This document shows positions 17,220 to 19,006 of a stretch of 64,000 nucleotides of DNA, piece by piece. Source of the DNA: Vulcanimicrobiota bacterium (lineage in GTDB: Bacteria; Vulcanimicrobiota; Vulcanimicrobiia; Vulcanimicrobiales; Vulcanimicrobiaceae); assembly GCA_013036095.1 (NCBI GenBank), contig JAAXCW010000003.1:248001-312000 (forward strand), in the 5' to 3' direction. The translations under genes and the position numbers were made by a program. The notes beneath the pieces were generated by a model. It saw only the letters and a list, made by a program, of their open reading frames with translations, did no database searches and was not told the origin of the DNA. The stretch's first letter is position 1; each line of letters begins with the position of its first letter.

Positions 17220-17329
17220 CGCTTTCGGTTGTTCTCCAAGGAAGGAGGGTTGGAAACGGTTGCCTGCCCGCCCTTGCGGGCCCGCGCTTGGGTATGTTGT
17301 AAGTGACTCACCGTAATGGAGGTAGCGAG

Positions 17330-17782
17330 ATGGCGGTACGTATGGACCCCAGTGAATTATGGCAACGCTCGCAAGGCGTGATCAACCAGGCCGTCGGCCG
17401 CGGTGCTGAGCTGCTGGCCGATCGGGTCGAGCACTACGGCACAGTCGCGAGTGACGTCGGCGAAGTTTTGCGTGAAAAAGGCGAGCCCCAGGCGGCCGAT
17501 CTTGTCGACATGCTGGCCGGCGGCGTAAGCGACGCGGCGAGCTACCTACGGTCACGCGATGGTACGTCGCTTTGGAGCGACGCGCAAGAGTTCGCACGCG
17601 GCCGCACGTGGCTGTTAGCCGGAATCGGCTTGGTCGGCGGCATGGCTGCGGCGCGCGCTGTGCGCAGTGCGAATCGTCCGCGTGATTGGGAACAGCCTGA
17701 TTACGTCGAATCTTATTCGCAGTCGCAACCCACGTTCGGCGAATCCTCGCTGAACGGCGGGCGGTACGACGAGCGGTTATGA
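17330..17782 (+). CDS. Uncharacterised membrane-anchored protein (first gene of envelope cluster)
   Basis: 150 aa from ATG 17330, which has GGAGGT 6 nt upstream; a GTG at 17303 is less likely. Amphipathic helical N-terminus (SQGVINQAVGRGAELLADRV), one short hydrophobic segment (TWLLAGIGLVGGMAAARAV) near residue 105, and a polar Ser/Gln-rich tail. Not recognised as a family. It overlaps the next gene by ATGA; together with that gene and the DUF3618 gene it forms a cluster of the kind common in soil bacteria. Confidence 0.7.
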   Translation: MAVRMDPSELWQRSQGVINQAVGRGAELLADRVEHYGTVASDVGEVLREKGEPQAADLVDMLAGGVSDAASYLRSRDGTSLWSDAQEFARGRTWLLAGIGLVGGMAAARAVRSANRPRDWEQPDYVESYSQSQPTFGESSLNGGRYDERL

Positions 17783-18174
17783 ACCAGCACGAATCGCTTG
17801 GAGATTCGCTGCGCCATCTGGCGCGCGATCTCGGCGACTTGTTTCGCGCCGAGCTTGCGCTCTTCAAACGCGAAACGGCAACGCAGCTCCGCGGCCTAGC
17901 CGCAGCCGGAATTTGGATGAGCGGCGCGGCAGTGCTCGGGCTGGCGTTCCTGGGCGCGTTCACGGCCATGCTGATCATAGCGCTCGGCCTGGCGCTCCCG
18001 CTGTGGGCGTCGGCGCTTATCGTCACCCTGTTTTACGGGATTGGGGCAGCCGGTTTGCTGGCTGCCGCAATCGCAAAATTTCGAGAAGCAACACCACTGG
18101 ATTTCGATCAAACGGCGCGTAGCGTGAAGGAGGACATAGCATGGATCAAGAGCGGTATGAATTCCGCGAAGTAG
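17779..18174 (+). CDS. Phage-holin-3-6/DUF1469-type membrane protein
   Basis: 131 aa. Amphipathic N-terminus (LRHLARDLGDLFRAELALFK) followed by two adjacent membrane helices (about residues 46-70 and 75-97) and a charged tail (TARSVKEDIAWIKSG). This is the pattern of the putative Actinobacteriophage holin III / DUF1469 proteins, which in chromosomes sit next to DUF3618 and YtxH-like genes and are probably envelope proteins, not lysis factors. Start overlaps the previous stop; the 3' end overlaps the next gene by 34 nt. Confidence 0.75.
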   Translation: MNQHESLGDSLRHLARDLGDLFRAELALFKRETATQLRGLAAAGIWMSGAAVLGLAFLGAFTAMLIIALGLALPLWASALIVTLFYGIGAAGLLAAAIAKFREATPLDFDQTARSVKEDIAWIKSGMNSAK

Positions 18175-18626
18175 AAGACGCGCGCGAGCGCGTCGCTGAA
18201 GACGTTCGGTCGGTCGCATACAACGCGAACGTCGTCGAGCGCACCAAAGAAGCGGCACAAGACAAAGTCGACGATGCGAAAGGTGCCGTCATGGATCGCG
18301 TGCAGAGCGCGAAAGATGCGATTGGAAGCGCCGGGATGCGCGTGCGCGACGTGACCGTCGAGAACCCAATGGGCATGCTGCTCGCCGGAATGGCGGTTGG
18401 CTTCCTCGTCGGTATGATGTTGCCGGTCACCCGTTTCGAGTCCGAGCGTATCGGGCCGATGACCGATCAGATGAAAGACAAAATGCGTGAGGCCGGCGGC
18501 GAAATCGTGCGTCGCGGCGGTGAAGTCATCAAGGACACGATCGAGGCATCCAAGGAGGCTGCTACGGCTTCAATCCGCACGCAAACTGCGGAGATGATGC
18601 CCGACGACACGTCGTCGATGACCTAA
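18141..18626 (+). CDS. DUF3618-like membrane protein
   Basis: 161 aa with AAGGAGG before the ATG. Long amphipathic helix rich in Lys/Asp/Ala (KEAAQDKVDDAKGAVMDRVQ), then VENPMGMLLAGMAVGFLVGM as a single membrane segment around residue 75-95, and a second amphipathic helix. The N-P-x-G-x-L-L-A-G-x-A-x-G-F pattern is that of DUF3618/YtxH-type stress proteins. Function unknown; presumed membrane-surface scaffold. Confidence 0.75.
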   Translation: MDQERYEFREVEDARERVAEDVRSVAYNANVVERTKEAAQDKVDDAKGAVMDRVQSAKDAIGSAGMRVRDVTVENPMGMLLAGMAVGFLVGMMLPVTRFESERIGPMTDQMKDKMREAGGEIVRRGGEVIKDTIEASKEAATASIRTQTAEMMPDDTSSMT

Positions 18627-18690: not shown

Positions 18691-19006
18691 GGGATGGTGG
18701 TGGAATCGGTAGACACAGCAGACTTTTCTTGGAGCCGCGGATAGGGAAACCGCCCGCGGGATGCGCTCAAATTCGGTGAACGCTTTTTCGTCGCATGCGG
18801 CGGATGCCAACGCCGAGCCAAGCCACTTCGGTGGAAGGTGTAGAGACTGGACGGGCGCGACCTACGTGAGGAAGATTAGAAGATCATAAGGTCAAGGCAC
18901 AGTCCGGACCACAAACGGGTCGCATAGCGAACCGGTGACGAAAGTTATAGTGGTGCGAAAATTTGCTGGCCGAAAGGCCGTCCGGGTTCGAGTCCCGGCC
19001 ATCCCA
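18691..19006 (+). tRNA. tRNA-Leu(UAA), split by a group I intron
   Basis: Exon 1 is 18691-18725 and exon 2 is 18958-19006. Joined, they give a class II tRNA: acceptor GGGATGG/CCATCCC, D-arm with GGTAGA, anticodon loop CTTAAAA (anticodon UAA), a long variable arm (GGCCGAAAGGCC), T-arm CCGGG-TTCGAGT-CCCGG and discriminator A. CCA is not encoded. The intron interrupts after U34, the classic position of the cyanobacterial and plastid tRNA-Leu intron. Confidence 0.95.
18726..18957 (+). ncRNA. Group I intron in tRNA-Leu(UAA) (232 nt, no ORF)
   Basis: The 5' splice site follows a U and the intron ends in G (18957), as group I introns require. Core elements resemble the conserved tRNA-Leu intron: P4 side AATTCGGTGAA (about 18770-18780), R-like GCCAACGCCGAGCCAAGCC (18806-18824), S-like AAGGTGTAGAGACTGGACGG (18835-18854), and the returning AGTCC (18901-18905) for P7. 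A small P6-type hairpin CCAC-TTCG-GTGG lies between. It is expected to self-splice; subgroup IC3 is inferred from likeness. Confidence 0.92.

Follow-up and report, generated by a model that had tools for sequence, protein, structure and literature searches.

The interrupted gene at positions 18691–19006 (+ strand) of the 64-kb window, by which we mean the whole stretch of DNA analysed, is a pre-tRNA-Leu(UAA) with a group IC3 intron, which very probably splices itself and stands apart from the main cyanobacterial lineage of trnL introns. The relatives of the intron place the host in the phylum Candidatus Eremiobacterota (Vulcanimicrobiota). This explanation joins computed features, namely the fold, the boundaries, the single copy of the gene, the intron clade, its agreement with genus and family and the empty sites of relatives, to what we infer about the splicing chemistry, splicing in vivo and the manner of the losses.

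The locus holds exactly one pre-tRNA, and all its parts lie on the + strand. The 5′ exon (18691–18725) ends in GACUU, the last base being U34; it was delimited by ARAGORN on the joined exons and by the abutting empty alleles of relatives. The 3′ exon (18958–19006), read from the sequence and from ARAGORN, starts with AAAAUUUGC and has no encoded CCA. The group IC3-type intron of 232 nt (18726–18957) is placed after U34, its terminal G (18957) directly preceding A35, and is supported by a covariance-model match, covariation and empty sites. In intron mode, ARAGORN reported a tRNA-Leu (taa) with an intron of 232 nt, and the joined exons form an 84-nt tRNA-Leu(UAA); the default ARAGORN run did not report the interrupted gene at 18691–19006. 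In two genomes of the same genus (G001 and G003), positions 1–35 and 268–316 of the query abut, with precisely 232 nt absent. The boundaries are thus fixed independently of ARAGORN, because the empty alleles lack exactly 18726–18957. The original prediction was borne out by ARAGORN and these empty alleles in its coordinates, exon boundaries and 232-nt length; it was also right about the terminal G and the P/Q/R/S core, and the insertion at U34/A35 of tRNA-Leu(UAA) is, as it held, that of cyanobacteria and plastids. Scans for sigma-70 promoters and terminators found none.

The surroundings of the tRNA differ among related genomes. Three small genes upstream of it (window 17303–18626), one of which has a Phage_holin_3_6 domain, are missing at that place in G001, G003 and G002. 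The genes downstream vary from one genome of the genus to the next, as they would at a hot spot of integration, and in one of these genomes (L220, G005) an integrase-like ORF lies immediately downstream of the intron-bearing tRNA-Leu.

Next, we examined the fold of the intron using an alignment (A3) of 43 non-redundant Eremiobacterota introns and an IC3 structure drawn by hand. The structure was matched by 98.4% paired cells and 33 pairs covarying on both sides, as against 33–40% paired cells and 5–18 two-sided pairs when it was slid along the same alignment as a control. In the window, the internal guide sequence GAG (18732–18734) pairs with exon CUU (18723–18725) to form P1, with a U-G pair at the 5′ splice site, and the three pairs (UG, UA and CG) are unchanged in 43/43 introns. 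P2 (18735–18759) shows two-sided changes in seven of its nine pairs and carries a GAAA loop. Then follow the 5′ strand of P3 (18763–18768), which is constant in A3; P4–P5 with the P and Q core strings (18773–18816); P6 and P6a (18817–18839), all four pairs of P6a covarying; the 5′ strand of P7 (18845–18849), which holds the R core string and the guanosine site; the 3′ strand of P3 (18853–18858); P8 (18859–18893); the 3′ strand of P7 with the S core string (18900–18904); and the P9 region with its own GAAA loop (18908–18954), where all four pairs of the inner stem covary. For P4–P5, P8 and the 3′ strand of P7, covariation was observed both within the phylum and across phyla. Invariant in A3 are the splice-site U-G, the terminal G (G267) and the GAAA of L2.

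The P3–P7 pseudoknot fold also holds in 101 introns of several phyla, with 99.0% of cells paired and 22 two-sided pairs. P3, which was absent from the search model, is 96.6% paired and five of its six pairs change on both sides; P7 is 100% paired, with two-sided changes in three of five pairs. The Eremiobacterota trnL introns measure 206–346 nt (median 224), reside in a tRNA anticodon loop and have no P5abc extension. These observations confirm that the window intron belongs to group I and, within it, to the IC3 (tRNA) type. In two of its relatives, a near-identical palindromic repeat (TGTCACCCTGAGCTTGTCGAAGGGTGA-like) occupies the P6a loop (L059) and the P9 loop (L045), apparently through separate insertions.

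A covariance model built from 14 cyanobacterial trnL introns only (R2) gave a single match in the 64-kb window, at 18760–18913(+), with 74.6 bits and an E value of 1.7e-19; there was no second match at E ≤ 10. The Rfam model RF00028 gave no match to the intron, whether cut at its gathering threshold or relaxed to E ≤ 10, and a whole-genome search with it was likewise empty. The absence of an Intron_gpI covariance match was the very result that the original prediction had named as refuting the intron; we judged it a false negative from a positive control. With RF00028, three cyanobacterial trnL introns scored 71.5–111.7 bits (cut-off 50), a fourth (L140) 49.7 bits and two proteobacterial trnL introns 47, while both Eremiobacterota trnL introns tried gave no score. 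The negative result does not refute the intron, because this control shows the model to be insensitive for the lineage, and we do not treat recognition by RF00028 as defining membership of group I IC3. GC-rich IC3 tRNA introns from Eremiobacterota and Alphaproteobacteria are either missed by the same model or score close to its cut-off (control set L001, L010, L138, L140 and L175).

We then followed the intron through the phylum with a covariance model of the Eremiobacterota intron core (R1). After taking out six genomes with matches in other tRNAs, the trnL intron was present in 50 of the 149 phylum genomes, 43 of them in family f1 and 7 in f3, and it was absent from f2 and all other families. 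The carriers thus belong to two families of one class and to more than 20 genera. A pattern search (GACTT-GAGCC-GGATGCGCTCAA) in 84,980 species genomes yielded 37 real introns, nearly all from Candidatus Eremiobacterota or Vulcanimicrobiota and including three from the same genus (L070, L074 and L089 in G004, G006 and G005, respectively). Another 26 matches on genome contigs and four on viral contigs were chance matches, those inspected being protein-coding.

The intron sequences respect host taxonomy at each family and genus line tested. On the intron tree, a single change (93/85) separates families f3 and f1, and each of the six genera represented by at least two introns needs one change; the genus changes total five, which is the minimum, whereas shuffling gave a mean of 16.8. 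For 22 of the 26 rows, the nearest intron came from the own genus, against 2.4 on average under permutation. Clean empty alleles occur at the same syntenic locus within the same genus. Since the intron clade keeps to genus and family lines and close relatives have empty sites, these data point to vertical descent with many exact losses. The original prediction had allowed for either inheritance or horizontal acquisition; the intron tree, the taxonomy and the empty sites favour the former within the class, with many losses.

The main alternative is that frequent gain within the phylum, by reverse splicing or by homing with a trans-acting endonuclease, explains the patchiness instead of loss. 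On a recA tree, presence and absence of the intron required 22 changes, at least 13 of them forced by well-supported (starred) branches, and presence was barely clustered (500 shuffles averaged 25.5 changes, and 52 of them needed as few), which speaks for gain, as does the existence elsewhere of an endonuclease gene in a trnL intron. Counting only the ten sequence-verified empty sites still left 7 changes; a parsimony count alone cannot separate gain from loss. The tree is of a single gene, with at least one odd placement (G036), and leaves out five genomes that had no RecA motif as searched. Intron and recA distances were weakly correlated (Mantel 0.12; 371 of 5000 permutations as high). Against gain, none of the 43 Eremiobacterota trnL introns contains an endonuclease-sized ORF (longest 85 aa), and in the sets tested the intron sequences stay within genus and family lines, although spread among close relatives would look alike. 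We therefore regard frequent gain as a serious but clearly less probable account. Taken together, the intron appears to be old, inherited vertically within its class and often lost exactly, and gain among close relatives may also have occurred.

A few irregular loci came up in this survey. A truncated-looking intron in G034 was actually an assembly gap of NN. In G043 (the end of C34, L137) and G026 (C11 and C6), contigs stop where the intron meets the 3′ exon or close to that point; G026 also has two 3′ exons on separate contigs, and the assembly might combine populations with and without the intron.

The host genome (97% complete by tool estimate) has 48 uninterrupted tRNA genes, whose Leu anticodons are CAA, CAG, GAG and UAG, and not UAA. 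The interrupted gene is its sole tRNA-Leu(UAA) and the sole reader of UUA, and therefore would have to be spliced; at this completeness, we consider splicing in vivo of this single-copy essential tRNA likely. The gene would be transcribed as a pre-tRNA, in which the 232-nt intron is predicted to fold into the P3–P7/P4–P6 ribozyme core. P1 would hold the 5′ splice site, with exon CUU on the guide GAG and U34 facing G. Exogenous guanosine, bound in P7, would attack the 5′ splice site, and the freed U34 would then attack the junction behind the terminal G and become ligated to A35. We infer this two-step, guanosine-initiated self-splicing chemistry from the intron family, and it fits the anatomy. 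The ribozyme might not be self-sufficient and require a protein splicing factor, as some group I introns do (for example CYT-18 in fungi). This seems unlikely for an intron with a small complete core and GAAA loops in L2 and L9, features that recall the very stable Azoarcus intron, which has GAAA loops in the same two places.

The trnL intron is the textbook ancient intron common to cyanobacteria and plastids. Their intron shares with the Eremiobacterota intron the gene, the U34/A35 site, P1 (CUU on GAG) and the core fold, and its model matches the window at the E value given above. The two differ in the R string (GTGTAGAGAC in Eremiobacterota, GTGCAGAGAC in cyanobacteria) and in P3 (GCGCUC versus GCUCUC), and the Eremiobacterota intron is a separate lineage in a different phylum, missed by RF00028. 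The original prediction had proposed a tree of the intron against cyanobacterial and other tRNA-Leu introns. Our cross-phylum tree, of moderate weight and not final with about 100 tRNA introns and 130 columns, placed the Eremiobacterota introns outside the main cyanobacterial trnL clade. They form one side of a branch supported at 97/91 (100/93 without two long rows), whereas 15 of 16 cyanobacterial trnL introns form a separate clade (98/98), placed together with tRNA-fMet introns; the two clades are not sisters on these 130 columns. With the same columns, a tree constrained to unite the Eremiobacterota introns with the 15 cyanobacterial ones was marginally rejected (AU p 0.044); one uniting all trnL introns in a single clade was rejected (p 0.006). 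L140, the sixteenth cyanobacterial intron, falls with those of Acidobacteriota, which agrees with the title of Rudi and Jakobsen 1997 (cited in PMC5733544), where cyanobacterial trnL introns are called polyphyletic. For the cyanobacterial/plastid intron itself, the mosaic distribution has been explained by one gain and several losses, as stated in PMC4476775 citing Paquin 1997.

With moderate confidence, then, we place the window intron outside the main lineage of cyanobacterial and plastid trnL introns, with which it would share the insertion site but not immediate ancestry. Recent acquisition from a cyanobacterium, or a cyanobacterial contaminant contig, might be suggested by the identical site, the recognition by R2 and a bin contamination estimate of 6.6%, but is highly improbable given one clade tracking host taxonomy over two families and more than 20 genera, its position and the AU result above, and an upstream flank 86% identical over 2.5 kb to same-genus G005, which together with synteny to same-genus genomes also excluded a foreign contig.

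Contrary to what was suggested, it is not exceptional for a trnL intron to occur outside cyanobacteria. The same site is filled in Pseudomonadota (a Methylocystis bin, L138, and 21 other loci), Acidobacteriota (8 loci) and Chloroflexota (L268, L269 and L279); matches in Actinobacteriota reached 27–34 bits. The introns of the former three phyla share the site and the IC3 core with those of Eremiobacterota and mostly score 92–114 bits with the Eremiobacterota model, yet they fall outside the Eremiobacterota clade, among introns of other tRNAs. Proteobacterial introns of tRNA-Ile(CAU) (Azoarcus) and tRNA-Arg(CCU) (Agrobacterium-type) are likewise small IC3 introns with similar R and S strings, and the tRNA-Arg introns examined score 96–114 bits with the Eremiobacterota model; both differ in residing in another tRNA at another anticodon-loop position. 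For many trnL introns, ARAGORN in intron mode gave the wrong labels Ser or Phe, and we reassigned the hosts by reading the exons.

Further tRNA introns were observed along the way. A tRNA-fMet group I intron is present in five Eremiobacterota genomes (L128, L130, L131, L132 and L133 in G071, G078, G072, G077 and G039, respectively), with an ORF inside it in L130, L132 and L133; that of L133 encodes a PD-(D/E)XK endonuclease (PF11645, E 2.6e-50), an arrangement that resembles that of I-Ssp6803I in Synechocystis. Two other genomes carry group I introns in tRNA-Tyr(GUA) (L129; G083, family f8), with a core near the cyanobacterial trnL clade, and in tRNA-Asn(GUU) (L134; G080, family f5). In Chloroflexota, an HNH endonuclease gene splits the tRNA-Leu(UAA) intron of L279 (G953), which is possibly a mobile trnL intron.

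According to one review (PMC4033280), group I introns of tRNAs occur in cyanobacteria and in alpha- and beta-proteobacteria; for tRNA-Leu it names cyanobacteria and plastids only. In the part of the literature covered, we found no paper on trnL introns in Pseudomonadota, Acidobacteriota or Chloroflexota. The trnL intron outside cyanobacteria is thus commoner than the literature found says and is under-described, yet the intron type is already known. A textbook gene and site are filled by a separate lineage in a phylum that the reviews found do not name for the trnL intron, and in three further phyla. It has gone unseen because neither the standard Rfam model nor tRNA finders run with default settings detect it; published censuses resting on RF00028 are likely undercounts, and genomes seemingly without tRNA-Leu(UAA) may simply hide an interrupted gene.

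We give an even chance to the broader view that several group I lineages, in five or more bacterial phyla, each settled on their own at the U34/A35 site of tRNA-Leu(UAA), and that the Eremiobacterota intron has passed vertically, without mobility genes, and been exactly removed more than 10 times; a shared site would then be no proof of shared descent. Within the class, filled sites and exactly vacated ones form a clean natural series in which the loss of a non-mobile intron from an essential gene can be studied.
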